This document shows positions 4,691-64,000 of a stretch of DNA of 64,000 nt, in pieces. The translations under genes were made by a program, and so were the position numbers. Each line of letters starts with the position of its first letter. Positions within the stretch are counted from its first letter, which is position 1. Origin of the DNA: Margaritifera margaritifera (Eukaryota; Mollusca; Bivalvia; Unionida; Margaritiferidae); the NCBI GenBank assembly GCA_029931535.1, contig JAQPZY010001670.1:7192501-7256500 (forward strand), in the 5' to 3' direction. Below the pieces are notes generated by a model. The model was not told the origin of the DNA. It was given only the letters and a program-made list of their open reading frames with translations, and ran no database searches.

Positions 4691-4795
4691 GATGTTCCTA
4701 TTTTTACTGTATTTTCACAATAATCTATTTACAAGAAGTTATGTTAAAACAACAATCTTTCATAAACTACACTGAGAGTTTCAATATTATAAGTG

Positions 4796-5048
4796 TAAAA
4801 TAAGACATGGAATATGACAGTAGCACACTTTTATTGGTGTATGGAACATGTGATAACACAAGGAATATGACAGTAATAAAAGTCATAGCACACTTTTATT
4901 GTTGTATGGAACATGTGATAACAAGGAATATGATGGTAATAAAAGTCATAAATACACTTTTATAGCTGTATGGAACAGGTGATATCACAAGGAATATGAT
5001 GGTGACCCAAGTCATAGCAAACTTTTATTGGTGTTTGGAACATGTAAT
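4796..5048. repeat. ~70-bp tandem repeat, about 3.5 copies
   Basis: Imperfect copies share ggaatatgacagtaat, aagtcatagcacacttttat and gtatggaacatgtgataac. They lie in intron 2 of MFSD13A. Confidence 0.7.
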
Positions 5049-5804: not shown

Positions 5805-7500
5805 ACATTCTGTACATCACCAATAAAATATCTGAGCTGGTCATAAAGAACACATCATTCTGTACATCACCAATAAAATATCTGAGCTGGTCATAAAGAA
5901 CACATCATTCTGCACATCACCAATAAAGTATCTGAGCTGGCCATAAAGAACATATCATTCTGCACATCACCAATAAAATATCTGAGCTGGTCATAAAGAA
6001 CACATCATCCTGTACATCACCAATAAAGTATCTGAGCTGGCCATAAAGAACACAACATTTTGTACATCACCAATAAAGTATCTGAACTGGCCATAAAGAA
6101 CACAACATTTTGTACATCACCAATAAAGTATCTGAACTGGCCATAAAGAACACAACATTTTGTACATCACCAATAAAATATCTGAGCTGGTCATAAAGAA
6201 CACATCATCCTGTACATCACCAATAAAGTATCTGAACTGGCCATAAAGAACACAACATTTTGTACATCACCAATAAAGTATCTGAACTGGCCATAAAGAA
6301 CACAACATTTTGTACATCACCAATAAAATATCTGAGCTGGTCATAAAGAACACATCATCCTGTACATCACCAATAAAGTATCTGAACTGGCCATAAAGAA
6401 CACAACATTTTGTACATCACCAATAAAGTATCTGAACTGGCCATAAAGAACACAACATTTTGTACATCACCAATAAAATATCTGAGCTGGTCATAAAGAA
6501 CACATCATCCTGTACATCACCAATAAAGTATCTGAACTGGCCATAAAGAAAACAACAGTTTGTACATCACCAATAAAGTATCTGAGCTGGTCATAAAGAA
6601 CACAACATTTTGTACATCACCAATAAAGTATCTGAACTGGCCATAAAGAACACAACATTTTGTACATCACCAATAAAGTATCTGAACAAGCCATAAAGAA
6701 CACAACATTTTGTACATCACCAATAAAGTATCTGAACTGGCCATAAAGAACACAACATTTTGTACATCACCAATAAAGTATCTGAACTGGCCATAAAGAA
6801 CACAACATTTTGTACATCACCAATAAAGTATCTGAACTGGCCATAAAGAACACAACATTTTGTACATCACCAATAAAGTATCTGAACTGGCCATAAAGAA
6901 CACAACATTTTGTACATCACCAATAAAGTATCTGAACTGGCCATAAAGAACACAACATTTTGTACATCACCAATAAAATATCTGAGCTGGTCATAAAGAA
7001 CACATCATCCTGTACATCACCAATAAAGTATCTGAACTGGCCATAAAGAACACAACATTTTGTACATCACCAATAAAGTATCTGAACTGGCCATAAAGAA
7101 CACAACATTTTGTACATCACCAATAAAATATCTGAGCTGGTCATAAAGAACACATCATCCTGTACATCACCAATAAAGTATCTGAACTGGCCATAAAGAA
7201 AACAACAGTTTGTACATCACCAATAAAGTATCTGAGCTGGTCATAAAGAAAATAACATTTTGTACATCACCAATAAAGTATCTGAGCTGGTCATAAAGAA
7301 AACAACAAGTTTGTACATCACCAATAAAGTATCTGAGCCAACCATAAAGAACACAACATTCTGTACATCACCAATAAAGTATCTGAGTTGGCCATAAAGA
7401 ACACAACAGTTTGTACATCGCCAATAAAGTATCTGAGTTGGCCATAAAGAACACAACATTTTCTACATCACCAATAAAGTATCTGAGAGTTGTTGATAAA
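5805..7500. repeat. 50-bp minisatellite with 150-bp higher order
   Basis: About 34 units of 50 bp, consensus tgtacatcaccaataaagta then tctgaactggccataaagaa and cacaacattt. A marked variant (aaaata, gagctgg tcataaag, cacatcatcc) recurs at about 6001, 6201, 6351, 6501, 7001 and 7151, that is mostly every three units. The blocks 6501-6700 and 7151-7350 share further private variants, which points to a segmental copy of about 650 bp inside the array. Confidence 0.92.
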
Positions 7501-7920
7501 GAAAATAACATTCCTGTACACAAATTTTAAAAGAAAATTCACTCTCATACCAATTTGTACACAATAATTAATAAACCATGTTCTGGAAAAAAATAAAACA
7601 AAGTTTATATGACATCAAATAAAAGAGAAATCAATTAAAGGCTGGACTCCCCTACAGTGGGCTGAACCCAAACTGGCCACTATCATTAACATGATATATA
7701 TTGACAGTATTTAAATTGTGGGATGCCCATATTAAAAAATAGTAAGAAATAATTGATATTTATTTTCTAAAAAAAAAGAGGAATAATTTATGAATATATC
7801 AAGAACATGACCATAATTTTTCAGTTGCATAAGTTCAATAGCATTGGAGTATTTTCTATTTAAGCACTGTAAATACTACACAATTCAAATAGAATCTGAA
7901 ACTGGATCATTACATTTGAA
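7501..7920. other. No gene seen
   Basis: AT-rich unique intronic sequence with several short A runs. Confidence 0.5.
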
Positions 7921-15522: not shown

Positions 15523-17160
15523 GGAAACTTTACTAAGAAGAGTTAATGATCTAGAAATATTCATCTCATTTTTCTGTATTATGCATAGTATGCAATAGGA
15601 AAATGAACAGAAAAAGAACCAGTTAAACATTAATTTCATCTGATGCTCAAGTTTACTTGGTGATATAAATATACAGTAGTTACATACAGAAAATGGGCAT
15701 ATGTTTATCCTGGTTCAGGCAAACTTTGAGATTTTGCATAGGTGGGTTACTTATAATTTCTGTTGGTAAATTTTAAAAGGCAGGAATTAATTTTGATACA
15801 AGGTAGTTTTACAGAAAGGGAGCCAAATGATCGAGTGCTGTAGGTCTTGTTGTTAATAACAAATGGTCGAATTACATCTTTGTAAGTAGTTTGGAGCAAA
15901 ACCATTGTCAATTTTAAACAACTAATGTGACTGACAAGGAATGGAAGAAAATAAACTGATCAATGTAAAAATTTGATACTAGCTGTATTGATTAGTTCAA
16001 TAGTTTTTCTTTGTATCACTGATTTTTCTTTTACAAGAATCAAACATTGGAATAGCCTGTGGTTGTACAGTATGAATCACTTATCCCCGAGTAAACTGTT
16101 TATTGTCAACTCAACGGCAAAGACAACAAACCAGCGGAAGCGCTGTTTGTTGTACTTTTAGGTTATCAGTTCGCACATGAAATTATAAACACGTCAATAT
16201 CAAAGAAAACAAGATGTGTTGATGGTTTCTCTTGTGCTAGGTTATTGGTTTGAGCATGAGCACTTCTCTTCGAAAACTGCATGTGTCAACTACATGTATC
16301 TAGGATGACTTTTGTGACCATTTGTGATTTTTTAAAAACCACTACTTTGGTAATTAATGCAGAATAGTACAATTTAAAATAAAATAACGATGTGAAATCT
16401 TAATAATGTTTTATTTAAGCGATTGGATGTCAGAAGAAATCGTACAATATGTGAATGAGAACTCATGCATGGAGTAACCATTGGAACGATTTTGTTTCAC
16501 TTCAGTCAGGTATAACTTCAGCTTTGTTATTAATTTGTTGAATGTTTATCGTTCTTTTCATTGCAAGGAGTACAATATCATCTCACTTTCATATGATCAT
16601 TAAAAATTGTATTGCATAAACTGAAAAAGAAATAAGGATATGAATGCATGTTTAGACTCCGATAACATAGTACTGAATAAAAAAAATTAGATTCATTGCG
16701 CAAAATATAGTATTAATACAGTTTGCGAGGCACTGTCAATACGTTATTATCATCTAAAATTTGATTTGGCACATTGTATCATACATTATCTTCGTTAGAA
16801 CAAGGAAATATTTATAATTAACTGAATGACTACGTTTTTTTTTTTCTGTCTCAAAAGCAAATTGCTCCCCAATGGGATACGATGTAGATAAATCGGTGCC
16901 CCCCCCCCTCGCTCTCTCCCTTTATCTCAACCTTTGCTTGCAGGGGTCATAAACAGTAAACCACACCCATATTATCGAGACCACATCCACTCTGTGGTGG
17001 TGATCGGATGCGACTCCGCAAGAAAGTGTGGTGTGCAGGGCTATTCAGCACAAGACGCCATGGCAACTCTGTAAGGACGCACAGAGTGATGGTGGAGGTT
17101 TTTTTTCTTAATCCTCTCCACTCTCTCCACCCCCACCACGAAGGGTGGGGTTCCAAAAAA
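15523..17160. other. No gene seen (intron 1)
   Basis: AT-rich intronic sequence. From about 16860 the base composition becomes GC-richer, with a C run at 16901-16908. I could not assign 16950-17160 to any family. Confidence 0.45.
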
Positions 17161-17161
17161 T

Positions 17162-17465
17162 TATGAGAGCTGTACTGTAGTTGAGATGCGATATAAAAGT
17201 AAGCAGATAGTTGAGATGCCATATAAGAGAGTATGGAGATAGTTGAGATGCGATATAAGAGTAAGCAGATAGTTGAGATGCCATGAGAGTATGCAGACAG
17301 TTGAGATGCCATATAAGAGAGTATGCAGATAGTTGAGATGCGATATAGGAGGAAGCAGATAGTTGAGATGCCATATAAGAGAGTATGCAGATAGTTGAGA
17401 TGCGATATAGGAGGAAGCAGATAGTTGAGATGCCATATAAGAGAGTATGCAGATAGTTGAGAGAA
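17162..17465. repeat. 62-bp dimeric minisatellite
   Basis: Alternating units agttgagatgccatataaga gagtatgcagat (32 bp) and agttgagatgcgatatagga ggaagcagat (30 bp), about five dimers. Long open frames on the minus strand here reflect the repeat. The array lies about 330 bp downstream of the exon 1 donor of MFSD13A, inside intron 1. Confidence 0.9.
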
Positions 17466-17792
17466 ACTAACAGAGAAATTCTTGCAGTTAGCCAAAAGCT
17501 CCCAACTTGTTTCACTCAACTTTTTGTAAGCAACTTGTTAATAGGTGGGTAGCTGCTAACTGTTCTTTTTTGTGTGAACTTAACAGTAATTTCTGCATGT
17601 TAGACAATATTTCAATTGGTATGTTATATACAAATAAAACAATACAGTCTGTCAATTTTTCTTATAAATGGAAACATTTCTGTTAGGTTTGTCATCTTAT
17701 GAACCAAGAGAGAAAAATGATTTATTGAATGTGACTAATTAATCATCAGGATTCCATGACAATGCAAAATATGCTGCAGAAAGGTACATTAC

Positions 17793-21430: not shown

Positions 21431-22070
21431 TACAGCGAATCCAAGCTTCATGAAAACCTAATCAACATAATTAATGTCTGACCATGGCAACACAATTGGG
21501 TCAGCTGCCTCTGTGTCCTTCAGAAAGGCACCTAGCTCCCATTTCCACAACATGATATATACAATAGTGTGTTAAAAGCAACAAATTTATATTTTGCTGT
21601 CATTTAACATCATAATGTACACCTGCTTTCCATATTTCCTTTCATCTAACTGAACAATTATTAACCAATATTTAACAATCATAAAATACACTGCAGTGAT
21701 GCATTAAGTTCCACCAACTTTACCATATATAAAACCATTTTGTGACAATGTTTTATACCAAGTAATTCTTCTAAAAAACTGCAATTGTAACCTTTTAATT
21801 GAGATAGCCTGTGCAATCCACATACTTCTGCTTCATGCAGGTTAATAATGGAGTGACAAGTTTATCAAATAGATCCAAAACATTACTAACTTCAACAATT
21901 ACAACTTTATCTGGTATTAACTTATAAACTGCCTTTTGACCTTGATCGGAGAGCTTACAGAGCTTCAGAATACGAGTCACCCGATGTAAAAACATTTGTC
22001 AACAATCTCCAGCTCTTTACTATCAAAGAAAAACTTGTAACTCTGCCACCTTTCCTAAATATCATAACTT
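21430..22070 (-). pseudogene. Non-LTR retrotransposon reverse-transcriptase C-terminal relic
   Basis: Read on the minus strand in shifting frames, the order of motifs follows the C-terminal part of a LINE reverse transcriptase. It runs TKVMIFRKGGRV (about 22060), KELEIVDKCFYIG, SNVLDLFDKLVTPLL (about 21870), QNGFIYGKVGG (about 21710) and IVKYWLIIVQLDERKYGKQ (about 21640). These are the family's K-T-K-I-M thumb segment, the L-E-V-V-x-K-F-x-Y-L-G block and the L-F-D-K-L-V-x-P-I-L segment. At least four frame changes and several stops are needed, so it is inactive. The catalytic YxDD part would lie upstream and is not present. The clade was not determined. Confidence 0.72.
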
Positions 22071-22235
22071 TGGTCTTTTATGTATTTACTGATAATTTCC
22101 ATCTATCACAATACAGTTGTAAATTATCCTTTTTTTCAAATCACTCACAGTTCAAAAAAATTCAATATCATCTGTATCCATCAATAAAAACAAATGCATC
22201 ATACTATTATTTATTCCTTGAACACCATTTTGGTC

Positions 22236-24365
22236 AAATTCATCTTCTAGATCATTCACACACTGGTATGACTAAAAGCCATCTTCCAGATCATTCACAT
22301 ACTAGTATGACTAAAAGCCATCTTCCAGATCATTCACATACTAGTATGACTAAAAGCCATCTTCCAGATCATTCACATACTAATATGACTAAAAGCCATC
22401 TTCCAGATCATTCACATACTAGTATGACTGAAAGCCATCTTCCAGATAATTCACATACTGGTATGACTAAAAGCCATCTTCCAGATCATTCACATACTGG
22501 TATGACTAAAAGCCATCTTCCAGATTATTCACATACTGGTAAGACTTAAGCCATATTCCAGATTATTTACATACTGGTATGATTAAAAGCCATCTTTCAG
22601 GTTATTCACATACTGGTATGACTAAAAGCCATCTTTCAGGTCATTTACATACTGGTATGACTAAAAGCCATATTCCAGATTATTCACAAACTGGTATGAC
22701 TAAAAGCCATCGTCCAGATCATTCACATACTAGTAAGACTATAGCCATATTCCAGATTATTCATATACTGGTATGGCTAAAGCCATATTCCAGATTATTC
22801 ACATACTGGTATGGCTAAAGCCATATTCCAGATTATTCATATACTGGTATGGCTAAAGCCATATTCCAGATTATTCAGATACTGGCAAGACTAAAGCCAT
22901 ATTCCAGATTATTCACATACTGGCAAGACTAAAGCCATATTCCAGATTATTCACATACTGGCAAGACTAAAGCCATATTCCAGATTATTCACATACTGGC
23001 AAGACTAAAGCCATATTCCAGATTATTCACATACTGGCAAGACTAAAGTCATATTCCAGATTATTCACATACTGGCAAGACTAACACCATATTCCAGATT
23101 ATTCACATACTGGTATGGCTAAAGCCATATTCCAGATTATTCATATACTGGTATGACTAAAAGCCATCTTCCAGATCATTCACATACTGGTAAGACTGAG
23201 GCCATTTTCCAGATTATTCATATACTGGTATGGCTAAAAGTCATCTTCCAGATCATTCACATACTGGTAAGACTAAAGCCATATTCCAGATTATTCATAT
23301 ACTGGTATGGCTAAAAGTCATCTTCCAGATCATCCACATACTGGTAAGACTTAAGCCATATTCCAGATTATTTACATACTGGTATGACTAAAAGCCATCT
23401 TTCAGGTTATTCACATACTGGTATGACTAAAAGCCATCTTTCAGGTTATTTACATACTGGTATGACTAAAAGCCATATTCCAGATCATTCACATACTGGT
23501 ATGACTAAAGCCATCGTCCAGATCATTCATATACTGGTATGACTAAAAACCATATTCCAGATTATTCATATACTGGTATGGCTAAAAGCCATCTTTCAGA
23601 CCATTCACATACTGGTAAGACTTAAGCCATATTCCAGATTATTTACATACTGGTATGACTAAATGTCATCTTTCAGGTTATTCACATACTGGTATGACTA
23701 AAAGCCATCTTCCAGGTCATTCACATACTAGACATTTAAATAATCCTAGCTAGATTGTAATTGTGCCAAGTAAATACTTTCGAAGACAGGAAGTGGGGTA
23801 CGATTCATAATGAACTTGCAACAGACTATAAAAGCCATCTTCCAGATCATTCACATACTAGTAAGACTAAAGCCATATTCCAGATTATTCAAATACTGGC
23901 ATGGCTAAAAGTCATCTTCTAGATCATTCACATACTGGCAAGACTAAAGCCATATTCCAGATTATTCACATACTGGTAAGACTAAAGCCATATTCCAGAT
24001 TATTCATATACTGGTAAGACTAAAGCCATATTCCAGATTATTCATATACTGGTATGGCTAAAAGTCATCTTCCAGATTATTCATATACTGGTATGACTAA
24101 AAGCCATCTTCCAGATCATTCACATACTGGTAAGACTAAAGCCATATTCCAGATTATTCATATACTGGTATTAATAAAAGCCATCTTTCAGGTTATTCAC
24201 ATACTGGTATGACTAAAAGCCATCATCCAGGTCATTCACATACTAGTCATTTGCATACTAGTATGACTAAAAGCCATCTTACAAGTCATCACACACTGGT
24301 ATGACTAAAAGTCATCTTCCAGGTCATTCACACACTGGTATGACTAAAAGTCATATTTTATTGCA
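22236..24365. repeat. 39-bp minisatellite, about 54 copies
   Basis: Consensus attcacatactggtatgact aaaagccatcttccagatc, 39 bp or 13 codons. Because the unit is a multiple of three, a long frame (from 22070, 159 codons) stays open through the first part, with a 13-residue repeat. This is a repeat by-product. A 38-bp subfamily (ggcaagactaaagccatattcc) dominates 22860-23100. Unique sequence interrupts the array at about 23730-23830. Confidence 0.93.
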
Positions 24366-33195: not shown

Positions 33196-33534
33196 ACATT
33201 ATCTTAAAACATATTATGGTCTTGACACTGCTTGATGCATGCCATTGAAAGTCCATTACCAGTCATTAGTGATTTGAGTAACTGTAGCAAGATGACAGAA
33301 ACATGTTTCTATCAACCTATCTAATTTGTAGTGATTAAAAAAAAAAAATGTGTGAGAAAACACTTAATAAAACTGTGACAAGTGACATCTTATTATACAT
33401 GGTATTTCTGGATGTAACTGTCTCACTTCTAAAATGAATATCACTTGACATTAATATATGGTCATTGGTTTAACTTTGTTACATATGAAATTAGTAAATG
33501 TGTGTCTTTCTCTATTACTAATGATGATATGACC

Positions 33535-34110
33535 CTGATGTCAAATGGCTGTGTTCCACATACAGCAGTATTATACACAGTAGAAAACCTGATGCCAAAT
33601 GGCTGTGTTCCACAGCAGAAAATCTGATGCCAAATGGCTGTGTTCCACATGCAGCAGCATTATACACAGTAGAAAACATGATGCCAAATGGCTGTGTTCC
33701 ACATACAGCAATGTTACACACAGTAGAAAACCTGATGCCAAATGGCTGAATTCCACATACAGCAGTATTACACACAGTAGAAAACCTGATGCCAAATGGC
33801 TGTGTTCCACATGCAGCAGTATTACACACAGTAGAAAACCTGATGCCAAATGGCTGTGTTCCACATGCAGCAGTATGACACACAGTAGAAAACCTTATGC
33901 CAAATGGCTGTGTTCCACATGCAGCAGTGTTATACATGGCAGAAAACCTGATGCCAAATGGCTGTGTTCCACATGCAGCAGTATTATACACAGTAGAAAA
34001 CCTGATGCCAAATGGCTGTGTTCCATATACAACAGTATTACACACAGTAGAGAACATGATGCCAAATGGCTGTGTTCCACATGCAGCAGTGTTATACATG
34101 GCAGAAAACA
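33535..34110. repeat. 54-bp minisatellite, about 10.5 copies
   Basis: Consensus aaaacctgatgccaaatggc tgtgttccacatgcagcagt attacacacagtag, 54 bp or 18 codons. Because the unit is divisible by three and lacks stops in several frames, long frames are open on both strands (for example 33518-34111 minus and 33599-34114 plus). No host-protein signature is present, so these frames are not called genes. Confidence 0.93.
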
Positions 34111-34261
34111 ATAATAAACAGGTTTATATTAAAATACATCTAAGACACACTGTAGTATAATACCCAGTAGAAGAAGAAGAAAAAAACAGTAAACATACAG
34201 TATGTTTATATTAAAGTGGAGATAATCTATTCAATCACAGATAGATACATGTAGATAGTTA

Positions 34262-40829: not shown

Positions 40830-41388
40830 ATAGCAGTATGTGTATGAGTTTTCACATGAATAAAGAATAGTCGGTAGAACTACGGAGTTGAATAGTCGGA
40901 ATTTCGTTGTGGTACTGAGCGTTTTGGTCATACAGATTTTGTTAGTCTTCCGAATGTGCTAGTGCATTTCCCAATTCTGATTTTTACATCTATGTATTGC
41001 CCAGACAACTGCCTAAGTAGGTGAATGCATTCAAGATCTTTCTCGTTGCAAGTTATATTAGGTCTTTTTATTTCCCCTACGGCCATAATTTTAATTTTCT
41101 TGCTGCTGATGTTTAGTCCCAGTTTGACTGCCATGTATGAGATGGTTGTGGTTGCATCTTGTAGGTTGTCTTCGTCTGTCCCAAATATCGCAATATCGTC
41201 TGAAAAATCGAGATCTACAAGTCTCCCGTCCTTCCATGGTATTCCAAGCGAGCGGTCTGTATGTGCCTGCCCCATTATAAAATCAATGAGCAGGAAGAAA
41301 AGAAATGGTGATAGGGTACATCCCTGATGGACTCCAGTAAGAATAGGGAAGAAGTCTGTTTTTCTTGTTTCGGTCCTGATGTTCATTA
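40830..41388 (-). pseudogene. LINE reverse-transcriptase fragment (inverted 5' segment)
   Basis: The minus-strand frame 40928-41386 encodes the palm of a non-LTR reverse transcriptase: GVHQGCTLSPFLFFLLIDF, then LVDLDFSDDIAIFG, then GLNISSKKIKIMAVG. The usual active-site motif [FY]ADD reads FSDD here, so both aspartates are kept and Ala is Ser. The frame stops at 40928, and after a frame change the minus strand continues with KFRLFNSVVLPTILYSCEN (to about 40830), the family's L-L-Y-G-x-E segment. The next segment of the same element is found on the opposite strand starting at 41391, so the two form one rearranged insertion. Confidence 0.82.
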
Positions 41389-41390
41389 TT

Positions 41391-44479: not shown

Positions 44480-45900
44480 ATGGTTAGGCCTTACCTATAT
44501 CCATGGGTTCGTGTTCCATCTGTTTTTTTTTTTTTTTTGTTTTTTGTTTTTTTAATAGCCTAGGATCACTTCTCTCAAACTGTTCATTTCCATAGTATAA
44601 TTGAATTCTGCATGCAAGCAATGTGAAGCTGGCGTTCAATGTGTTTGCCAGAGCTACTGCAAACTGAAGTTCCACACGAAGTTAGCCCGATTTTATAGGG
44701 TGGAAATGTCCCTCGTCGCTGCCTTGGTCTGGAGTGAAATCAAAGCTACACAAAGCATATCCTCCTGCATAATTGTCGTACGAAATGCCGTGGCTACTGT
44801 TGGTACCGAACTGTCCTGTGGCTTTGAATAGTGTTAAGTAAGATCTCAAGTAATTGGTTTCTGGGAAAATTTAGGTTCAAAGGGTCTGGTACACAACGTC
44901 TGTCCATCTTGGGTGAGTTCTGTCTTGGACACGTTGAGTGATGGAACACGAAACGATTTTGATTGATAGCTCCGTTGAGAGCCGCATTGCTGACGATGCC
45001 AATGAGCAAATGTTTTGGTAGCTGACCTTGGAAAACATGATCTTCTATCTTGGATCGCAGTCCAGAGGCAATGGTGAACGTTTTGACTGCCACTCGTAGT
45101 AGATTATACTAGGCTGTCGTTCTGCGCAGAGCTTGACTGATGTCGTTTCCAACTTTGGGTTTGACTTGCACACGTCGCACGTAGAGTTTGGCTCCTTCGA
45201 TGTTCGTTTTGTACTCGTTGGCATTAGCCATCAAATGGAACACGGCACTTCTTCGATTCGGTCTCAGGCGTACATCCACTCAACTCAACAAATACTTGTC
45301 TTGCCACCACATGTCCAAATGCAAACGATCCATCATTTCTAAACAACGTTCTTGTTTGATTTTCTTTGGGCGGTCATTAAATCCAACATTGTGAGAATCG
45401 TTAACCGCAGTAAACTCTTTGTTGTTGAACTTGTCCAGCGTGTCAGGTTTCCATACCAATGAGGCAACCAGATGTGTGGTCTTGGCTCGTGTTCCGTACG
45501 TCAAGAGATTTTCCAGGTAAGTTCAGTAAGGGTAAGTGTCCATGCTGCTGCTGACTAGTTTGCTATTCAAGTACAAATCAACTTCGCTGAACAATGAATG
45601 CATGAAAATGTTAACGGGAGCTACTCTTGAGAAGTTTGACTTTTAGTTACAAGTAACTGTTATTCAGATCGATGTAATCTTCGGTTTATCCTTTGATTTC
45701 AAATTCGATAGGTGCTGAAGTGGATAGAGACAACACGGTTTGAAATTATGCCCATTTGGATTCTTGCATCGGCATCATCGTTGATGGCATGGCAACCAGT
45801 TCGAGTTCTGACTTGAAACATTCGCAAGAATCTCGGTGCATCAATTTTCATTTTTTAGTTATCAAAAACGTCAAATTCTCTGACAGCTGTTCTTTTCTTA
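44480..45900 (-). pseudogene. Polinton major capsid protein (double jelly-roll type)
   Basis: Family members form the hexon-like shell. In order from the N-terminus, broken frames show a DYIDLNNSYL-type segment (about 45670-45720), then LTYGTRAKTTHLVASLVW-like coding (45280-45504) ending RLHLDMWWQDKYLLS. TFTIASGLRSKIEDHVFQGQ follows (44794-45093), then LPKHLLIGIVSNAALNGA, and finally ELQFAVALANTLNASFTLL near 44600-44675. The G-R-L-H-x-D-[IM] and F-Q-G-x-L-P-K/R segments are hallmark strings of Polinton capsid proteins (F54H12.2-like). At least four frame changes and several stops make it inactive. Start and end are approximate. Confidence 0.8.
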
Positions 45901-48806: not shown

Positions 48807-49860
48807 CTACTTCTTTTTATAGGCAATGACTTGTGAAGCAGCAATCCAAGAACCGAAGCTGCGTTGATATCTTTTACAACGAACTTTCACTTCTTGAAGT
48901 CGATGTTCTCCCACTTTACGTGTTCTTCGATCGAGAATGCTTTCGATATCGTATACGTCGTCTCCTTTCTTAGTCACTCTTTGTAATTCAGGCAAGTACA
49001 AAGTTCCTTTTCACTCTTCTCCGTTCATATTTGTCAATTTATAGACAGGAGGATCACGTCCACGCACTTGTCCAGTGACACGAAACAATTCTGTCTTCCA
49101 GTTGGGTAAATAACTTTTGTCAAAAGTGCGTTTTGTTTTTCCAATGCGAACCCAATCTCCGTTGTTTAACACTTCTTTCATTGTTCTGGTCTCTGACGTT
49201 CCAAACAATCGATCAATCACCATCACTTCGCTTTCAGGAGTCACTTCTTCTGGAGCACATCTGATGCTACGATGATACGATTGATTGTAAGCTTTGACTA
49301 GACGTAGTAACACGTCGATATATTTGAGAGTATGTTGATGTGTAAAATATTTCCACATCATTTCTTTTAAACTTTGTAAACGTTCCACGACACAAGCTTT
49401 TGTTTCAGGATTTTCAGTGACGTTAAAAATGAATGTGTCTATTTCAATTCTTTTTCAAAAGCTTGGTTCAGAAATTCGGTGCCTTGTCTGTTTGCCATCG
49501 TAGAGGATGTCGACCACTTTGTTTCAAGACCAGTTTTAAAGCTCTCACTAACTATGAACTTGTTTTAGAAGTCAAAGGAACTACCCATGCTGGTTTTGAA
49601 AACATGTTAATGACACAAAATATATATTTGTAACCTCGATTTTACGACGCCAAATGAGAAACATCCGCTAAATCTGCTTGCCATTGATGGTCGATGCCTG
49701 CTACTTTCGTTTGACTTCTGGTAAAGTTCCGTCGAATGGGGTTGTGTAACATGTACGTCGAGAGTTCTTGTGACCATTGTCATATATCTTGCAGACGTAA
49801 ACCTGAGTTTGGTTTTAGCGGCACGCTAGAATATTTAAATTCCTTCGTAGACAGCAGCAT
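48807..49860 (-). pseudogene. Polinton integrase with C-terminal chromodomain
   Basis: Retroviral/Ginger-type integrase (rve fold) that would insert the element. The N-terminal piece near 49850 reads NIYYNPAHAA. The catalytic core between 49400 and 49780 is recognisable only in pieces (for example GHKNSRRTCYTTPFDGTLPE). The frame 49011-49388 is well kept: YIDVLLRLVKAYNQSYHRSI, then VRIGKTKRTFDKSYLPNW and VRGRDPPVYKLTNMNGEE. Frame 48807-49001 adds a chromodomain: YLPELQRVTKKGDDVYDIES with CKRYQRSFGSWIAASQV. Several stops and frame changes in the core make it inactive. A second copy of its N-terminal piece lies at 51660-51810 as part of a tandem duplication. Confidence 0.82.
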
Positions 49861-49939
49861 GAGCAGGATTGTAGTAAATGTTTGCTAAAAGTGTATCCAT
49901 GTGGTTTGCTCTTGTTCCTGTTCATCAATAGGTCACCCA

Positions 49940-50230
49940 CTATTCGATACTGCTCTTAGGTTGTTTGTGTGGTAATTTTGATTGCGGCGATGATTGACGT
50001 GTTCGACGAGCAATAGGAGTAGGAGTAGTCATCGGTTCTTTGGTTACTTTTTTCTTGATTTCTTTTTTCACGTGTGTCTTCCCTTCTTTCTTTTGTTCTT
50101 CTGCTGAAGAGGGTGTCAACATCAGAGTTTTGGCCCAAACTTTCATTTCCTCTCATCTGGGTGCAGGGGAAGGTGTCGATAAAGTTGTCATACTAGGAGG
50201 AGAAGGAAATAGAGCAGACAAAGTATGAAA
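49940..50230 (-). pseudogene. Polinton small basic protein X, copy 1
   Basis: A frame of 68 codons (49940-50146) encodes MKVWAKTLMLTPSSAEEQKK, then KKEIKKKVTKEPMTTPTPI and ARRTRQSSPQSKL. It is rich in Lys/Arg and Ser/Thr and lacks hydrophobic segments, so it may be an unstructured DNA-binding or core-type protein. A close relative is X2 at 51782-52066, which helps show that this is real coding sequence under common descent. It lies upstream of the integrase start and downstream of ORF Y. The family was not recognised. Confidence 0.45.
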
Positions 50231-50560
50231 CACTTCTCTTGTTTCTTATTCTTTTCTTCCATCCCTGTGGCTGTCATAGTTTTTGTTGCTTTTTTTCTTA
50301 ACTTTTCATGACATTCTTGAAATCTCAGAGTAGGTTTAGCTGTTTCCTCTAAAGCTTTCTGGTGAAACAGTTGAAGACGCTGCAATAAGTGTCCATACCG
50401 TTGCGCTATTTCTCTTTCTGTCAAATCTGTTCGATCCATCAACGGTTGTAATTCTTGTTGTAAGTGCGACATCTAGGTGAAATTAGGATTAGGAGGTAAA
50501 TGGGGTGTCCGTTGTTCGTACCAACGATGGAGTTCCATCTATCGTTTGTAAGTAACATAA
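50188..50560 (-). pseudogene. Polinton small helical protein Y, copy 1
   Basis: From the ATG at 50472 the frame encodes MSHLQQELQPLMDRTDLTER followed by EIAQRYGHLLQRLQLFHQKA, ending at 50188 (94 residues). The heptad-like spacing of leucines suggests a coiled coil. The same string, MSHLQQELQALMDRRDF, recurs in copy 2 (about 52320-52370). There it is preceded in frame by HRWYEQSTSHLPPNPNL, so the true start may lie further upstream (about 50560 here). Function unknown. Confidence 0.5.
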
Positions 50561-50719
50561 GTTAATTTTCGTCCGTCGATAAGATCCTAGGGTACAAGTG
50601 TGATGTCTTTTCAGAAGAGTGTCCTTTTTATCTTCTTTTTCATTATCTCATTACTCCTCCTAACAGATGTCTAGCAATCGATTCTAACAAAGGAGCAGCT
50701 ACTTTTAACAATTGTCTTA

Positions 50720-50968
50720 TCAGCATGGTGAGAAAAGTTTTGTTGAACGAGCATATTGTTTCTTTTTACTGATGGGCATTTTCTTTTTCACCATTTGGCG
50801 AAGAAGGTGACGATGACGTTCTAATCTCCGTTTCTGTATCTGGGTCAATGGCACCGTTCCTTTCAAAACTTTCAGACAACATTCACAAACGGTATCGATG
50901 ACTTCTTTTAGTGCTTTTTGAATGATTTGTTTTCGCATCGGAGCATTGGATTTGGTCAGTACTGACAA
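50720..50968 (-). pseudogene. Polinton small basic/hydrophobic protein Z, copy 1
   Basis: 82 codons with KGTVPLTQIQKRRLERHRHL and LRQMVKKKMPISKKKQYARS. In copy 2 the homologous frame (52501-52758) continues into a hydrophobic C-terminus. Copy 1 stops soon after TKLFSPC, so its hydrophobic end is lost to a frame change. Family not recognised. Basic plus amphipathic composition recalls small virion proteins, which is inference only. Confidence 0.45.
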
Positions 50969-51139
50969 AACAAACCAATGTTTGGCTAAATGAGGGGGGA
51001 GTCCCTTTTACCCCCTTTTTTGGATGAAGGTTTCTCTGGACGTTGTCGATAATGATGGTGTGAACTTCGTGACATCTTTGTTTCAGGAAGAAAAAACTGA
51101 AGTGAATCTTATCCAACACTTTCTCCTTTATTATACTGG

Positions 51140-51655
51140 AATTAATTTGTCTCACTGAATGTCGGGATGTCGTATCAACTTGACTTTAGGTACTACTGGT
51201 GTTTTCAACAGACTAAATCTTGCCAGTTCTTGTTTGAAGAAATTCAGTAAACCTTGTAACACGCCTGTTCTGTCTTGTACTTTTGTCTTAGGAGAGGCCA
51301 CTATTGTGGCTGCAGCAGCAGCTAAAGCAATAGAAAATTCGCCGCCGGAGAAGTAGAAGTTTCTTTAGAGATGGGTTTGCATTTTTTGATCAAATTGAGA
51401 AAGACTGGTCTTAAATCAGGTTTGGCAGGCATCATCATTAACGAAGGAGAAGAAGAAGTGGCAGGAGAAACCGTCACCAAGCGAGATTTTCTTGAATACG
51501 TGCGCGTTCTAGCGGCAGTACCTCTCTTCTTTACAGGAGATGTTTTTCTCTTAGTGCTTTCTTCTTCTTCTTAGAGTGTGAACTTGATGCACCACCTCTC
51601 TTCTTTTTGGTCTGCTGTCTTTTAGGTGGTTTGTCATTTTTAGCTTCAGCTTTAG
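51140..51655 (-). pseudogene. Polinton lysine-rich protein W, copy 1
   Basis: Minus-strand coding in several frames. It opens (about 51660-51560) with a Lys-rich run that includes KPPKRQQTKKKRGG, has an FKKISLGDGFS segment near 51490, and ends with TPVVPKVKLIRHPDIQ near 51165. Copy 2 has the same order of segments at 52800-53350. Composition suggests a nuclear-targeted, nucleic-acid-binding protein. Not recognised. In-frame stops and frame changes separate the parts. Confidence 0.4.
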
Positions 51656-52246: not shown

Positions 52247-52504
52247 CTAAAACTTTCTGGTGAAACACTTGAAGAAGCTGTAGTAATTGTCCGTACCGTG
52301 CGAATTTTCCGTTTCTGAAAAATCTCTTCGATCCATCAATGCTTGTAACTCTTGTTGTAAGTGTGACATCTCTGTAAGATTAGGATTAGGGGGTAAGTGA
52401 GATGTTGATTGTTCGTACCAACGGTGTTCATTTTCGTCCTTCCATACGATAAAGGTGTACAGGTGTGATGTCCTTCCAGAAAGATCTGTCCGTTTTATGT
52501 TCAT
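52247..52504 (-). pseudogene. Polinton small helical protein Y, copy 2
   Basis: A frame of 85 codons encodes an N-terminal segment (MNIKRTDLSGRTSHLYTFIV), HRWYEQSTSHLPPNPNL and the copy-1 string MSHLQQELQALMDRRDF. A frame change then ends the similarity near 52290, so the C-terminal half of Y2 is read in other frames (to about 52150). It shows that the Y protein probably starts upstream of the internal Met used in copy 1. Family unknown. Confidence 0.45.
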
Positions 52505-52758
52505 CTCAACTCTCCTCTTAAAAGAGGTTCAGCAATCGATCCTATCAAGGGAGCAGCGACTTTTAACAACAGACGTATCAGCATGGAAAGCAATCCTCCT
52601 CGTTGAACGAGCACTATTTTCTTTCGACTAACTGGATTCTTTTTCACCATTTGTCGAAGAACGTGACGATGTCGTCCTAATCGCTGTTTCTGTATCTTGG
52701 AAGACAACATTAGACGTTGAGGATACTGTGAACTTTGAGAGGAAGATATCTTGTTCAC
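52501..52758 (-). pseudogene. Polinton small basic/hydrophobic protein Z, copy 2
   Basis: 85 codons with the basic core KQRLGRHRHVLRQMVKKN, shared with copy 1, and a hydrophobic or amphipathic tail, LLSMLIRLLLKVAAPLIGSI. It ends RGELR, overlapping the start of Y2 by four bases. The layout (basic middle, amphipathic end) is compatible with a membrane-active or internal virion protein, but that is inference without a family match. Confidence 0.45.
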
Positions 52759-52789
52759 AGGAACTGAAGTGAGTCTTCTCCAAAACTTA

Positions 52790-53370
52790 TTCTTTTATAC
52801 TGGAATTCGTCTCCACTTGTTGTCGGGACGTCGTACTAACTTGACTTTAGGCACCACTGGGCGTCGAGGTGTTGTCAACAAACTATATCATGCCAGTTCG
52901 TGTTTAGACAAATCCGGGAAACTTTGTAACATTCCTGTTCTGGCTTGCACTTTGTTTCTTACACAATGCCACCTCTTTGGCCCCATCAGCAGCAGCTAGA
53001 GTAGCAGAAGAAGATGACGATGACGACGGAGAGGTAGTAGAAGTTCCTTTAGAGATAGGTTTCCATTTTGTTATCAGATTGGGAAATATTTGTCTTAAAC
53101 CAGGTTTCGCTGGCATCATCAATAACGGAGGAGGTGTAGGAGGAGAATAAAAAAGGGGAGAGGTTTTCGTGAGTACTTGAGAGTTCTAGCTCGAGTACCT
53201 CTCTTTCTTGAAGGATCTTTTTTTTTTCTTCTTCTTCTTATTGGGAGAGTTTGATGTGGAGTGTGAACTCACTGCCACTATCTTCTCTTTTGTCTGTCTT
53301 TTGGATTTTGCTTTTTTGGTAGGTTTTGCCTTTTTGCCTTTGGCTACTGTATTAGGATCTCATCATAGAA
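52790..53370 (-). pseudogene. Polinton lysine-rich protein W, copy 2
   Basis: Same order of segments as W1: a Lys-rich N-terminus (about 53280-53350), an acidic or serine-rich middle (SPSSSSSSSATLAAADGAKE, 52960-53040) and the VPKVKLVRRPD-like end near 52820. It is interrupted by stops and by length changes in TTC/TTT tracts at 53216-53240. Function unknown. Confidence 0.4.
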
Positions 53371-53740
53371 GCGAACGTATAATCACACCCCCTAAGACAT
53401 CCACTGCCACTTCGTTTCAAGATAATTTGTTTCTTCGTTTGAGTATCGATTCTTGTATCGGCGAGTTATGTCAAGCTAATTTATGTTTGTTTCTCTTTTT
53501 TTTTTTTCCTTCTTTTTTTTATAATGTTGTGTGTGATGAGGAATGTGAATAATTCTCTGTAGTAATTGATGTGCTATCAAGGTATACCATCGTAGCACTC
53601 ATCTGAGATTGGCTTCTAACAAATGCGAACGCACTGGAGTATTTTTTTATGGCACACAGTGCAAGAATCAATTGCTCAGGGGTATGAGATTGAAAGGAAG
53701 TAATGTTGAATACTGTCAGAGAGGAAAGAAGTGAATGGTG
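53371..53740. other. Polinton interior, not assigned
   Basis: T-rich tracts at 53490-53520. Minus-strand frames are short. No domain was recognised. Confidence 0.4.
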
Positions 53741-53743
53741 TTT

Positions 53744-54472
53744 TTATAGTTTTATTTGGACAGACGAAAACGAGGAAGGCGACGTGTAAATGACTGGACC
53801 TCCTTCTTGACACCAATCATGAAATAAATCGTCGCGAAATTTCAAATAATCTGGAGTGGAAGGTTTTAAATCGATCAGTAAATAGGCATGTGGCAATTGA
53901 GTGGCATTGTCATAAGTATAATTCAACCAAGGTTTTCCTGATTGTTTAGCCAAGACTTGAACTTGAGATTTGTCTCTTGGACTTTTAAATAACACCACAC
54001 AATGAGCATTGAGACAGATGGTGCGGTGCACCTTACCTTGTTGAAATAAATTTTGCGTAATGTAAATAATTCTGGCGTTATGATGATGTCCTTTCAGTGG
54101 AAACCAAAGTTGACTTTCCTTTTCGCTTTTTTCAAACATGTCATCGAAGATGACGAAGTGCGTTTAATTAGAGTCAGACAAGATCGCATCGTCTTCGTGA
54201 GGAATCCCTTCCACAAGCGAAATGAATTCTCCTTGACTATCTTTTAGTAACTTGTAAGTTGATTGCCACTCTTTGTAACAGCACAGGATACGTTGTGGAG
54301 GACGATCGAACAAAAGGGATTTTTGTTCGATCACACGTTTGACAAAGTCTGATTTGCCTGAACCACTTGTTCCGGCAAACGACATGTTAGAGGGATGGCA
54401 AAAATACAGTGTTTCCCAACTTTGATGCTGTGGCCTTTCGTCAATCACTCTGAGAACGGAGGATGCAACCAT
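53744..54472 (-). pseudogene. Polinton genome-packaging ATPase (A32/FtsK-like)
   Basis: P-loop ATPase that in this class drives DNA into the capsid. The N-terminal frame (54164-54472) contains the Walker A motif in MSFAGTSGSGKSDFVKRVIE at about residues 29-48. It then has RPPQRILCCYKEWQSTYKLL, and it stops at DAILSDSN. The second frame (53744-54139) carries ESQLWFPLKGHHHNARIIYI, TQNLFQQGKVHRTICLNAHC and VVLFKSPRDKSQVQVLAKQS, the family's H-H-x-N, Q-N-L-[FW] and K-N/S-P-R-D segments. The Walker B acidic pair falls in the break between the frames. One frame change near 54150 is enough to inactivate it. Confidence 0.85.
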
Positions 54473-54987: not shown

Positions 54988-55176
54988 CACAATACGTCGT
55001 CCTAAATTCAAAGAAATTGAAATCAGTTCTTTTAAAAGCAGTTGGTAATCCATTAAGTCTTGAATGGTGTCATTGACTTCATCCCATGAAATTTGGTGCA
55101 ACACTGACTGTATAAGTTGTGGCATGGAGAGTCGCATAACGCGTTCGCAGAAGATTCTTATCACGTGTTGGCACAA
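54718..55176 (-). pseudogene. Unknown Polinton gene with AC-repeat expansion
   Basis: A 152-codon frame. The N-terminal half (MCQHVIRIFCERVMRLSMPQ, then LHQISWDEVNDTIQDLMDYQ and LLLKELISISLNLG) looks helical. A run of (AC)n at 54932-54992 then reads as a Val-Cys repeat, which is a microsatellite and not natural protein. After it the frame continues TPNICLCTTNSLCKKELRLV to SEIRPTLSTFHTYQQVCVAS. The two flanks probably belonged to one protein before the microsatellite grew. Cys pairs in the second half could be a zinc site. No family recognised. It lies between the BIR gene and the ATPase on the same strand. Confidence 0.4.
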
Positions 55177-55339
55177 AAGCTCTCTTTCCGACTACGCTAC
55201 CTCCGTCTTCAGTCAGTCTTTTAATAGCATTCAGGTACCAATGGTTATTCATTTTATGTCACCGAGGATGCAATTGTTCTTTGCGTTTCACCTGAATCTG
55301 TACAAAGTAGTGGTAAATGCGCTCAGGTAGCTCCAAAGG

Positions 55340-55679
55340 CAAACTACGAATCCTCTCCAGTTCTGAAGTATCCAATGGAATGGTTTTCTGGACCGACCAA
55401 GGAAAGGCTCAGACTGCACGGAGACCATCTGGAATGTTCAAGGTAAGCTGTATCTTTATACTCCCATTCGTTGAGTTTCACACCAGAACTGAAACACTAT
55501 ACTTTATCTTTTTCTCTCAAATAGACAAATCCTGCTCTCGCCAAAGCTTTGGGAGTAGGTCCTTGCAAATATTTAGGCCATCTGCGGAATTAACCTCTTC
55601 CAAAATCTTGGATAAAATTCAACACATCCAACAAACCAATGATGAATTTGACATGATCGATGGAAAAGCCACCCTTCAT
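55340..55679 (-). pseudogene. BIR-domain (IAP-like) gene relic
   Basis: The minus-strand frame from the ATG at 55677-55679 (MKGGFSIDHVKFIIG...) has a stop at 55590-55592. It then encodes FRRWPKYLQGPTPKALARAG, FVYLREKDKV, a TAG (55497-55499), CFSSGVKLNEWEYKDTAYLE and HSRWSPCSL. The order L-A-x-A-G-F-x-Y, D-x-V-x-C-F-x-x-G, W-E-x-x-D, E-H-x-x-W-x-P-x-C is the baculovirus IAP repeat (BIR). BIR proteins bind caspases or pro-apoptotic partners through a zinc fold of C-x2-C, H and C. Here the second Cys of the first pair is Ser, and two stops interrupt the gene. No RING finger was found downstream. It is on the same strand as, and about 870 bases upstream of, the ATPase gene, so it is probably cargo of the Polinton. 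Confidence 0.78.
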
Positions 55680-59655: not shown

Positions 59656-59834
59656 TTTTTCTTCAGTCTAAGTGAAATCACATCTTGCTTCATAAAACCA
59701 TAAAGCAAAAAAAAAAAAAAGTCACGATCCTTCTTACCTGTTATAGGATGTTTCTTTTTCATTCTCTGGTAATTCTAGCCAGGGTTTCTATTAGTATGTC
59801 ATTTTTACCCTTGATATATATCTGGTTATTATTA

Positions 59835-60410
59835 AAAGGAGAAACGGTCATCAGATACATTACAAGACTGCTGAATAATATCATTCGAACAGGAGGACTT
59901 CCGGATATCCTAAAAGTCGGCATCCTTACTGAGGTCCCAAATAAGGGTAAAGACCAAACTATTTCAAGAAATTACAGAGGTATTATTGTCACCCCAATTA
60001 TATGCAAGGTGCTAAAACAGTCCTGCAAGGGGAAAAAAATTGAAGCAATCCTGAATCACTCCCCAAATCTATTACAACGCGGATTCACCAAAAATATCTC
60101 ATCTAACACTGCTGCCCTCTTTATAATAGAAGCTATAAGCGAAACGCAGGATTGGGGAAAACCACTTGCTATCGCCACTTTGGATGCTGAAAAAGCGTTC
60201 GACGCCGTATAGCATGGCCGACTATTACGCAAGCTCTATGACTCCGGCATCACCGGAACACTATGGCTCCTGATAAAAATTACATGCAGACAAAATCCAG
60301 CTAAAAAATCAAATGGGAGAATTTGATCAGCGACCCCATAACCATACTACAAGGGATCAAAACAAGGAGCCATACTCTCGCCAACCCTATATAAATGTAT
60401 ATCGATTTTT
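59835..60410 (+). pseudogene. LINE reverse-transcriptase fragment
   Basis: The plus-strand frame to 60212 encodes LNNIIRTGGLPDILKVGILT, EVPNKGKDQTISRNYRGIIV, LQRGFTKNISSNTAALFIIE and KPLAIATLDAEKAFDAV. These are the finger and palm entry motifs of non-LTR reverse transcriptases (K-G-K-D/x-x-x-N-Y-R-G-I, L-Q-R-G-F-T, L-D-x-x-K-A-F-D). After a TAG it continues HGRLLRKLYDSGITGTLWLL and KQGAILSPTLYKC to about 60400. The left edge near 59835 is abrupt, so it is 5' truncated. The right edge meets the Ty3/Gypsy LTR region. Which clade it belongs to was not settled. Confidence 0.82.
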
Positions 60411-60903: not shown

Positions 60904-60936
60904 TGGAATAAGGTGCTTGTATAATTAGTTTTTAGC

Positions 60937-62557
60937 ATGGCGTATAGAATACTAGATAACGAATGGTTTGTAACCCCACCTGATTCAAGGCGCAGACAAA
61001 GTGCTGGGGACAGATATGTGGCTGCAGAGTTTGCGCTGATTGACCAATCTTTCAATGAAACTTTCGGGATGGTGAATGGGGGTTCGCCCAAGAAGGGCGC
61101 ACGACGTTCAAAGCCTATCGCCAATGAAGATAACATTCAGATTGTGAGTGGGCTAGCAGCGAAGCTCGAAGATAGCCTGAGTAAGCGCATTGATAACAAA
61201 TCAGAGGCAGCCCGGTGCGCTGTTCATGATAGTATTGCCAAATTAGCAACTATTACAAGAAATGTTGCGGCACAGGTACAAAACAAGGCGCGGTGCGCCG
61301 TGGCAGAGGCGCAAGGTTCGCATGCTTCAGGTAAAGAGACGTGCACTGATGCACAGCCGCATGCGCTGTCCCATAACATCTTGGCACCAGACAAAAGTAG
61401 TAAAAACATGTTAATATTTTGCAAGATAGTAAAAACGAAGGTACAGATTCTGGTGTGAGAAAATCAGATAACACTTTCCCCGTGTTTTCGACTCCAAAAA
61501 TTTGTGCAAGCCCATCGAACGCACACATAACTTACTCCCAGGCCTGCTGCAATAAGTAGTATACATGGTAAAAGTCCTGACCCATGTATGCGAGCGCATG
61601 TGTCAACCACAGATAATTGCTAAATCAGACAAGTCAGACGAAATCATGTCATATCAAACAAGCAAGATTTGATGGAACTGGTTCCTGGCTAGATTATAAG
61701 TCCAATTTCGAGGCATTTGCCCACCTTAATGGTTGGAGTACCGAGCAAAAAGACATGTATCTCGCCGTTTCCCTTCGCGGACAAGCGCAAGGCGTCCTCT
61801 GAAACCTGAAGGATGGTGCTGGTGAGAATTATAAGCATCTTTCACAGGCACTCGAGGAACGATTTTCACCTCCCCACCAAACGAAATTGTACAGAGCGCA
61901 GCTGAAAGAGGGAAGACAAAGAGCTGCCGAAACACTTCCTGAACTTGGACAAAGTATCAGAAGACTTGTACAGTTAACCTATCCGACAGCACCAGGCGAT
62001 ATAACTGAAGTTATGGACAAAGAAAATGTTATTGACGCACTGGTAGATTCCGATATGCGACTTCGTATTCAACAGGCGCGGTCAAAATGTTTAAATGATG
62101 CCATACACCAAGCCGAAGAACTGGAAGCCTTTGATCGCGCAGAAAAACAGCGCAATGCTGATCGTAGCTACTATCGTCAGTTAGGAGCCAATGAAAAATA
62201 AGAGAAGGAATATCAGAATCAGTGGAGATGGAGCATATGCTAGCTCCGCTGAAACACATGATCCGAGAGCTCCATGAAGAAATAAGTATGTTGAAAAAGT
62301 CGTCTGAGCGCGATAAAGTCCCAAGTACTAACGTTAGAGCGGATTCTCATAAGAATTCTAACTCTAAATCCCTGACTCGCATCAAATATTTCAAATGTGG
62401 CCAGAGGGGACATATTAAGAAAAATTGTCTAGAATTAAACATACCTGTAAAAGCTGGTAACAAAAACACGAAGGGTCAAGCTACAGCCGGAGCAGCGCGG
62501 AAATTGCTTAGGCGCCAGGGCTGGCGCCGTGACAGTCATCCAAACAGATACCAGTGA
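60937..62557 (+). pseudogene. Gypsy gag (capsid/nucleocapsid) relic
   Basis: It starts MAYRILDNEWFVTPPDSRRR (60937) and the first frame ends at 61458. From about 61617 a retroviral-type capsid segment reads ARFDGTGSWLDYKSNFEAFA, then AHLNGWSTEQKDMYLAVSLR. After a stop at 61801, 61887-62201 continues LPELGQSIRRLVQLTYPTAP and DKENVIDALVDSDMRLRIQQ. A nucleocapsid zinc knuckle lies at about 62387-62428, but its first cysteine codon is TAT (62387-62389): YFKCGQRGHIKKNC, where the pattern is C-x2-C-x4-H-x4-C. At least three frame breaks inactivate it. It precedes protease and reverse transcriptase in the usual Ty3/Gypsy order. Confidence 0.82.
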
Positions 62558-62609
62558 AAAGAAAACAACCGGCAGCACTTGGTTGGAGTTCAATCTGTAG
62601 CTACCAGGC

Positions 62610-63062
62610 ATGAATGCATGTGACAGCATCCAAGGTCTCGATACCAAGCTTTTGATTGATACCGGAGCGACCGTCAGACTGGTGTCTGAGAAATTCTATT
62701 CTCAAATTTCTATCCAAAGCCGGCCTCCACTCGTCAAAGCTAAGCAGGATATTGTCTCTGCAGGAGATACCATGTTGACGCTTTTAGGACAAACAACTTT
62801 CACTTTTGGTATGGGCGGTAACGTTTACCACAGCAAAACGGTGGTGGCAAAGATTGATGTCACCGGGATCATAGGTTTGGACTTTATGAAGGACAACTGT
62901 GCGTCAACAGATGTTGCCAATGGCATATTTAAGATTGGCGACAAGTCGTTGCCCGTCTCGTTCGAAGGAACGTTGAGATGTTACAGAATAGCTTTGGCAA
63001 CTCCTGTAAATATGTCGCCTAGAAGTGAGATTGTCAAACCCGCAATCCGCTGTGTTTCTTAA
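62610..63062 (+). CDS. Gypsy retropepsin-type protease region
   Basis: An open frame of 150 codons with the aspartic protease motif in KLLIDTGATVRLVSEKFYSQ (Asp of D-T-G-A near residue 17) and the flap-distal GIIGLDFMKDNCASTD segment (I-I-G-L-D-F-[LM]). Each subunit of such proteases supplies one Asp to the dimer active site; this residue is intact. The frame ends at a TAA at 63060-63062, then coding resumes in another frame toward the reverse transcriptase. Not itself disrupted, but part of a pol gene broken on both sides, so not likely expressed as a working polyprotein. Confidence 0.75.
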   Translation: MNACDSIQGLDTKLLIDTGATVRLVSEKFYSQISIQSRPPLVKAKQDIVSAGDTMLTLLGQTTFTFGMGGNVYHSKTVVAKIDVTGIIGLDFMKDNCASTDVANGIFKIGDKSLPVSFEGTLRCYRIALATPVNMSPRSEIVKPAIRCVS

Positions 63063-63289
63063 AGACAAAATACCTCCCCAGTTTGAAGGGCTGATAGAGC
63101 CATCTACATCGTTGTTTGCGGAAAGGCCAATCATTGGTGGCCAGAACATTAGTAAAAGGGGGACATACAGTTTGACTACGGATGATGAATCCGTCAAATG
63201 AACCGCACATGCTATATCCAGGAACAGTAGTAGGCAATTTTAGCCCAGTTAAGCGTGTCTCCTGTCCAATAGCAGAAATCAGTCTGCAA

Positions 63290-64000
63290 TGAGACAGGCT
63301 AACAGACTGTCTGAGCGAGCTCTATCGATCAACAACGTCTGAACTATCACCGGAGCAGGCACATAAAGTAAAACAATTGCTCTGTAAGCACTCGGGGATA
63401 TTTTCATCTTCAAGCCATGATCTTGCGCGCACGGGTATAGTGAAACATACCATAAATATAGGATATGCAAAGCCAATTAAGCAGCCACTGCGTCGCCTGC
63501 CAGTACATACAGACGAAGAAGTGGATTGGAATGTCGATGATATAATCAGCAGGGGTATTGTGGTAACCTCTTGCAGTTCATGGTCGTCAGAAGTCGTCCT
63601 TGTCAGGAAGAAGGACGGAACCTTAAGGTTCTGTGTCGACTCCCGCAAACTGAATGATATCACAGTGAAAGCTGCGTATCCTCTTCCGAAAATAGACGCA
63701 TCCCTTGATCAATTAGCAGGCGCCGAATGGTTTTCAGCACTAGATCTCTGATCGGGATATTTGTCCGATTGAGGTTGATGAAGCAGATCGGCAGAAAACT
63801 GCGTTCTCTACCCGAAGGGGCCTGTTTGAGTTTACTGTAATGTCATTTGGCCTGTGCACTGCACCAGCGACATTCGAACGGCTTATGGAAACGGTCCTGG
63901 CAGGATTGCAGTGGAATATTTGCCTAAATATATTTGTATGACATCTTGGTCATAGGAAAGAGTTTTCAAGATATGCTCGCCAATTTAGATGAAGTGTTAG
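63290..64000 (+). pseudogene. Gypsy reverse transcriptase, cut by window end
   Basis: Connection region and reverse transcriptase of a Ty3/Gypsy pol. Frame 63377-63751 shows HDLARTGIVKHTINIGYAKP, then VVLVRKKDGTLRFCVDSRKL, NDITVKAAYPLPKIDASLDQ and AEWFSALDL with the first catalytic Asp, followed by a stop. Another frame continues DEADRQKTAFSTRRGLFEFT and MSFGLCTAPATFERLMETVL. At the second catalytic box the expected Y-x-D-D reads Y-L-Y-D, with TAT at 63937-63939 where GAT is expected. The element is therefore catalytically dead. RNase H and integrase would lie beyond base 64000. Confidence 0.85.

Follow-up and report, generated by a model that had tools for sequence, protein, structure and literature searches.

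A BIR (IAP-repeat) domain gene is supported as a regular part of a Polinton/Maverick element of Margaritifera margaritifera. The stretch of 64,000 nucleotides analysed here (the window) probably holds an old, dead, 5′-truncated copy of this element, in which the BIR gene was accessory cargo that would have delayed host-cell death. The position of the BIR within the element, its conservation, the open reading frames of its second copy (BIR2), the constraint on that copy and its predicted fold are directly supported.

The BIR relic of the window occupies 55347–55589 on the minus strand and was recognized by Pfam matches on both of its pieces and by tblastn with ORFs of other copies. The translation of 55589–55500 corresponds to positions 5–37 of Pfam BIR (E 1.1e-4; 23.1 bits, the curated cut-off being 22.9), while that of 55496–55347 corresponds to positions 39–66 (E 1.3e-3; 19.7 bits, under the curated cut-off). 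As the pieces follow one another in consecutive order with a stop between them, a chance resemblance is unlikely. By tblastn, ORFs of other copies align with the relic at 55583–55386 (66 aa, identity up to 70%). A first-pass annotation of the sequence had proposed such a relic at 55340–55679, on the same strand as a Polinton ATPase and upstream of it. The relic is real on the strength of the consecutive Pfam pieces and the alignment to sibling ORFs, the coordinates are correct to within a few bases, and the minus-strand BIR (55589–55347) indeed precedes the ATPase remnant (54457–53771). The annotation also counted two stops in the BIR. One of them, at 55499–55497 of the minus-strand translation, does lie inside the domain, but the other (55592–55590) precedes it, just ahead of the start of sibling similarity (~55581), and a third (55346–55344) follows it. 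The zinc-site pattern CX2CX16HX6C is lost in the relic: the second zinc Cys is a Ser, just as had been read at first, and the last Cys comes one residue earlier than in intact copies. The BIR copy of the window is dead.

On the minus strand, the window keeps the gene order of intact copies from the BIR through the integrase, as mapped by tblastn with ORFs from those other copies. The BIR is followed by the remnant of a protein in which LPLELRERIY-like motifs recur (LRER; 55100–55408, minus; ~40–49% over 86–104 residues, E to 3e-18), which follows BIR2 in intact copies. Next come the remnants of ORFX (55134–54991) and of an ORF that overlaps or follows it (54885–54619), both on the minus strand (37–54%, E to 2e-24) and separated by a CA-repeat. 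The A32/FtsK-like packaging ATPase remnant (53771–54457, minus) is 72% identical to the intact copy at locus L053, itself a Pfam Pox_A32 match (3.4e-8). Further remnants of post-ATPase ORFs were found at 52504–53841 (minus) with ORFs of loci L052–L063, and the same query ORFs match again at 49928–51528 (minus), giving a second copy of part of this block. The two sets of matches lie at about 53.1–51.8 and 51.5–49.9 kb, the second mostly of higher identity, and represent either a partial internal duplication or a second insertion. The rve-type integrase remnant (48828–49900, minus) is 61–72% identical to an ORF of L062 and 32–33% to the integrase of L058, and BLASTP also supports it (7e-13). Pfam recognizes nothing in the window piece; the L062 ORF matches rve at 6.8e-6, below the cut-off, and the L058 integrase at 2.4e-11. 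Farthest downstream is the remnant of a candidate capsid gene (44917–45811, minus; 31% over 239 aa to L058:8818–9999, E 5e-28), whose homolog lies near the integrase in L058. The ORF, shared between 45811–44917 and L058:8818–9999, has no Pfam match and may encode a capsid protein. PolB gave no tblastn match in the 64-kb window, and the upstream breakpoint of this copy falls at 55581–55589, where sibling similarity ends.

Sibling copies place the BIR within the element. The assembly of the window (2,453,371,941 bases in 1,696 contigs) was searched with the minus-strand query 55760–54560, and the best 40 of 6,339 candidates, including the window itself, were scored; such first-look candidate counts are not copy numbers. 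BIR sequence is present in all 39 other places scored, which are 72–81% identical to the query in the main matching piece and mostly extend through the next genes. Lack of the BIR would cost a copy just ~200 of ~1,020 matching bases, but the ranking does favor BIR-bearing copies. Matches begin at query base 176–186, the start of the BIR, in 36 of the 39 places and inside the BIR, at base 222–257, in the other three. Their common start near window position 55581 marks a breakpoint of the window copy itself. Of 29 sibling loci (L023–L051), all 29 have a detected BIR, 26 a PolB and 24 an ATPase; where detected, all on the same strand, PolB lies upstream of the BIR (26/26) and ATPase downstream (24/24). 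The BIR match is split or contains a stop in 25 of the 29, so the subfamily of the window is old and decayed. Two younger sets, L001–L020 (the first 20 of 150 places scored in a Pfam BIR search) and L052–L063 (12 longer loci), were also selected by BIR and have the same arrangement wherever the genes were detected, with PolB upstream in 17/17 and 10/10 and ATPase downstream in 1/1 and 10/10, respectively.

The assembly was also searched with the ATPase, a query lacking BIR, and the best 142 of 10,044 candidates were scored. At least 43 of the 142 have a BIR upstream on the same strand in a fixed place among the BIR matches listed, a lower bound as the other 99 were compared only with the best 150 of 6,513 BIR candidates. 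No BIR in any other arrangement occurs within 10 kb of the ATPase places among these listed matches. Because nearly all loci were found with BIR-containing queries, copies devoid of BIR were less likely to be seen, and the counts do not give the share of Polintons without BIR. The first-pass annotation had regarded the BIR as a member of the Polinton and had suggested looking for it at the same position in other copies. Its presence in every scored sibling, the fixed gene order and the colinearity down to the integrase uphold that membership, and the position is indeed constant, between PolB and ATPase wherever those two were detected. The BIR was probably acquired before the sublineages of the element in this genome diverged, and was then kept.

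The sibling loci also bear on whether the BIR could have come to lie in the window independently of the Polinton. It might be a host IAP exon or retrocopy that landed by chance beside the remnant, as the IAP families of bivalves are large and include many genes without introns, which two studies attribute to retroposition (PMC7831173; PMC8917759). However, the BIR is continuous with the next genes of the element in 39 of 39 sibling places, and the order relative to PolB and ATPase is fixed wherever detected, diverged lineages included. Segmental duplicates of one host locus are likewise unlikely, since the siblings are 72–81% identical and lie on many contigs. A chance neighbor or host retrocopy was rejected on the presence of BIR in all of these siblings and the fixed PolB-BIR-ATPase order, and is very improbable. 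Slightly less probable still is that the BIR is part of a different mobile element, for instance a LINE or a Gypsy with a BIR, which sits inside the Polinton. Planarians do have giant Gypsy elements with BIR, known as Burro (PMC6431247), and ORFs identified by eye as reverse transcriptases lie 4–8 kb from the BIR in the window. Nevertheless, no such ORF was noticed adjoining the BIR by eye in the parts of the ORF lists viewed, the alignment runs continuously into ORFX, and the order of BIR with PolB and ATPase is constant. A nested retrotransposon was rejected on these sibling alignments and this order.

As a gene of the Polinton itself, the BIR is represented by many open copies. In the Pfam BIR search of the assembly, all 150 places scored, the best of 6,513 candidates that are not to be equated with verified copies, exceed the cut-off and have no internal stops. 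Seventeen of the loci L001–L020 belong to the main lineage, with PolB upstream of BIR2, while L003, L005 and L007 belong to a second lineage. The younger lineages share the order PolB, one or more BIRs, LRER repeat protein, ORFX and ATPase, and their BIR2 frames are open. Most of the younger copies examined have two BIRs, BIR1 and BIR2, each a single-ORF gene; of the 17 main-lineage loci, 15 have a detected BIR1, which is split in several. In all of the 12 loci of L052–L063 except L057 and L058, hence in 10, BIR2 lies between PolB (in L053 a DNA_pol_B_2 match, 2.8e-39) and ATPase with the order unchanged. L017 and L018, on different contigs, are 99.91% identical over 3,200 bases, so the element has amplified recently. 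Between L053 and L055, the stretch from PolB to ORFX, containing BIR and LRER, is unaligned at megablast sensitivity and its flanks are 85–87% identical, whereas other pairs of loci align across this stretch at 81–88%. The LRER protein (L053:3627–4712 and homologs) lies between BIR2 and ORFX. It has no Pfam family and no confident structure model (mean pLDDT 39), and its LPLELRERIY-like repeats may resemble F-box motifs.

The second Polinton-like lineage, represented by L057 and L058, has a single detected BIR with an rve-type integrase ~2 kb away. In L058, the BIR lies at 4563–4985 and the integrase at 6804–7649, and this lineage also contains the candidate capsid ORF. Its BIRs retain the zinc-site pattern CX2CX16HX6C and the residues of the peptide groove described below. 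L003, L005 and L007 contain close copies of the BIR part of this lineage, after which come repeated CxGC...HEC proteins.

BIR2 has evolved under moderate constraint. Among 13 distinct sequences out of 16 matched by the intact-motif pattern, a set that omits L009 (65 residues), BIR1 and the second lineage, summed dN over summed dS for the domain is ~0.42, with single pairs at 0.20–0.65 (55 of 78 pairs, dS > 0.15). For the whole BIR2 gene, the median dN/dS is 0.54 (69 pairs from 14 loci; range 0.39–1.21), higher than the 0.146 of the ATPase (22 pairs, 8 loci), so the gene is retained while evolving faster than the core of the element. Values for BIR1 are left aside as their rows are mixed; in at least L002 and L006, where BIR1 was not found, the query hit BIR2. 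The zinc-site pattern CX2CX16HX6C is present in BIR2 of all 17 main-lineage loci of L001–L020. Across the 12 rows of alignment A2, the zinc ligands, W124, D128 and W137 do not vary, and L121 hardly does. We take the spacing of L121, W124, D128 and W137 to be that of the XIAP BIR3 groove residues L307, W310, E314 and W323. By its sequence, BIR2 has the L, W, D/E and W of a type II peptide groove. In the four BIR1 rows that were aligned the groove Trp is missing, and BIR1 may be a duplicate that has degenerated and has a different partner.

Structure prediction is consistent with this assignment. The AlphaFold model of BIR2 has a pLDDT of 73–92 (means of 10-residue blocks) across residues 71–150 and below 50 elsewhere, and the modelled domain appears XIAP-like: the best solved matches of the BIR model in Foldseek are to XIAP BIR2 (E 6e-9, 49% identity). 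Its viral matches comprise baculovirus IAP-3, an abalone herpesvirus IAP and ostreid herpesvirus proteins. Pfam detected no RING in the BIR ORFs scanned (BIR1 and BIR2 of L017 and the BIRs of L007 and L058). The L017 proteins have BIR and a weak zf-C3HC only, those of L007 and L058 BIR only.

The BIR2 protein would most likely be made during the virus-like replication of the element. Its type II groove could then engage the IAP-binding motif at the N-terminus of caspases or of the proteins that de-repress them, so that BIR2 would occupy or shield caspase N-termini or titrate IAP antagonists. A cell that is producing DNA or particles of the element would thereby be kept alive and its death delayed, as by the IAPs of baculoviruses and other invertebrate DNA viruses. 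With no RING in the scanned ORFs, the protein would act by binding rather than by a ubiquitin ligase activity of its own. Expression of BIR2, its target and its effect, like the capture of the BIR from a host, are steps that we infer. BIR domains also have non-apoptotic roles, and a Polinton-borne BIR might be survivin-like or sensor-type, or might serve as a zinc scaffold in replication or in the virion. The missing groove Trp of BIR1 and the lack of RING in the scanned ORFs would suit such a role, but BIR2 and the second-lineage BIRs retain the groove residues, and the best structural matches are caspase-regulating IAPs. A BIR without an anti-death role is accordingly unlikely, though well ahead of the chance neighbor and the nested transposon, and a delay of cell death is the reading we favor.

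Relatives beyond this genome are few. The protein database yielded just three relatives of the BIR, from jgi/ena sources on contigs of 1,145–1,503 bases. No relative turned up among viral contigs, for which the queries were an alignment, the ATPase, the candidate capsid ORF and two BIR proteins. A phage collection gave four weak, partial matches to PolB and nothing for the candidate capsid ORF. The BIR tree (64 columns), from which the BIR1 rows of L008 and L009 were dropped for not fitting a search pattern and other BIR1 copies left out, has one group of BIR1 and BIR2, one of P0003 and the second-lineage BIRs, and one of three human BIRs, with only 3 of 21 inner branches well supported. It was built without rows for bivalve host IAPs and herpesviruses, and the origin of the BIR is not readable from it.

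The element and its relatives share with Polinton/Mavericks and adintoviruses the PolB, A32/FtsK-like ATPase and rve integrase and also have a candidate capsid ORF, but differ from them in having one or two BIR genes and the LRER protein between PolB and ATPase. An adenovirus-like cysteine protease was not matched among the subset of element ORFs given to Pfam. Adintoviridae are defined (PMC11071296) by a PolB with an OTU-like N-terminus, a recognizable hexon and an integrase with a chromodomain. In an 849-aa stretch of the PolB, DNA_pol_B_2 is the sole Pfam match, and Pfam finds no chromodomain in the L058 integrase ORF. No BIR-bearing Polinton was recognized in the literature searched, a body outside of which most subscription journals and Starrett et al. 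(2021) fall, and priority is uncertain.

Among known BIR carriers, IAPs are usual in large DNA viruses of invertebrates (for example, PMC12548425). Those of baculo-, nudi-, entomopox- and malacoherpesviruses resemble the present BIR in fold, with structural matches among herpesvirus proteins and IAP-3; here, in contrast, the gene sits on a Polinton with many genome copies, and no RING occurs in the scanned ORFs. Burro, too, is a mobile element that combines BIR with further domains linked to apoptosis (PMC6431247), but it is a retrotransposon encoding one giant polyprotein, unlike the separate genes of this DNA element. The intronless BIR-only IAPs of the hard clam (clade 1) and of oysters are single-exon BIR genes as well, although they are attributed to retroposition in PMC7831173 and PMC8917759. 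According to the former, 51 of 159 hard-clam IAPs are intronless (42 of 49 in clade 1), the intronless genes are scattered over chromosomes, and DNA transposons are enriched around IAPs. The word Maverick does not appear in the main text of PMC7831173, and neither Maverick nor Polinton appears in the text of PMC8917759 as consulted.

It is possible, though we put this forward tentatively, that Polintons multiplied the intronless BIR genes of bivalves, that much of the ‘retroposed IAP’ class is Polinton cargo, and that BIR and LRER form a fast-evolving counter-defense block, perhaps acquired twice, in the main and L058 lineages. Polinton cargo is a testable alternative to retroposition for the bivalve IAP expansions, and counts that treat such genes as host immune genes might then need correction. 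It has been considered that Polintons may be integrated viruses; a conserved IAP among their cargo, itself under constraint, suggests that like infecting viruses they encounter host-cell death.

Elsewhere in the window, inspection by eye recognized the remnant of a Gypsy-like LTR retrotransposon at 60925–63751 (plus strand), with a gag containing a zinc knuckle, a protease and reverse-transcriptase motifs. Fragments of non-LTR reverse transcriptases were likewise seen by eye in the ORF list at 40928–41389 (minus) and 59676–60212 (plus). Three tandem-repeat arrays, at 16947–17537, 21890–22549 and 33518–34123, have long open frames, either on a single strand or on both.
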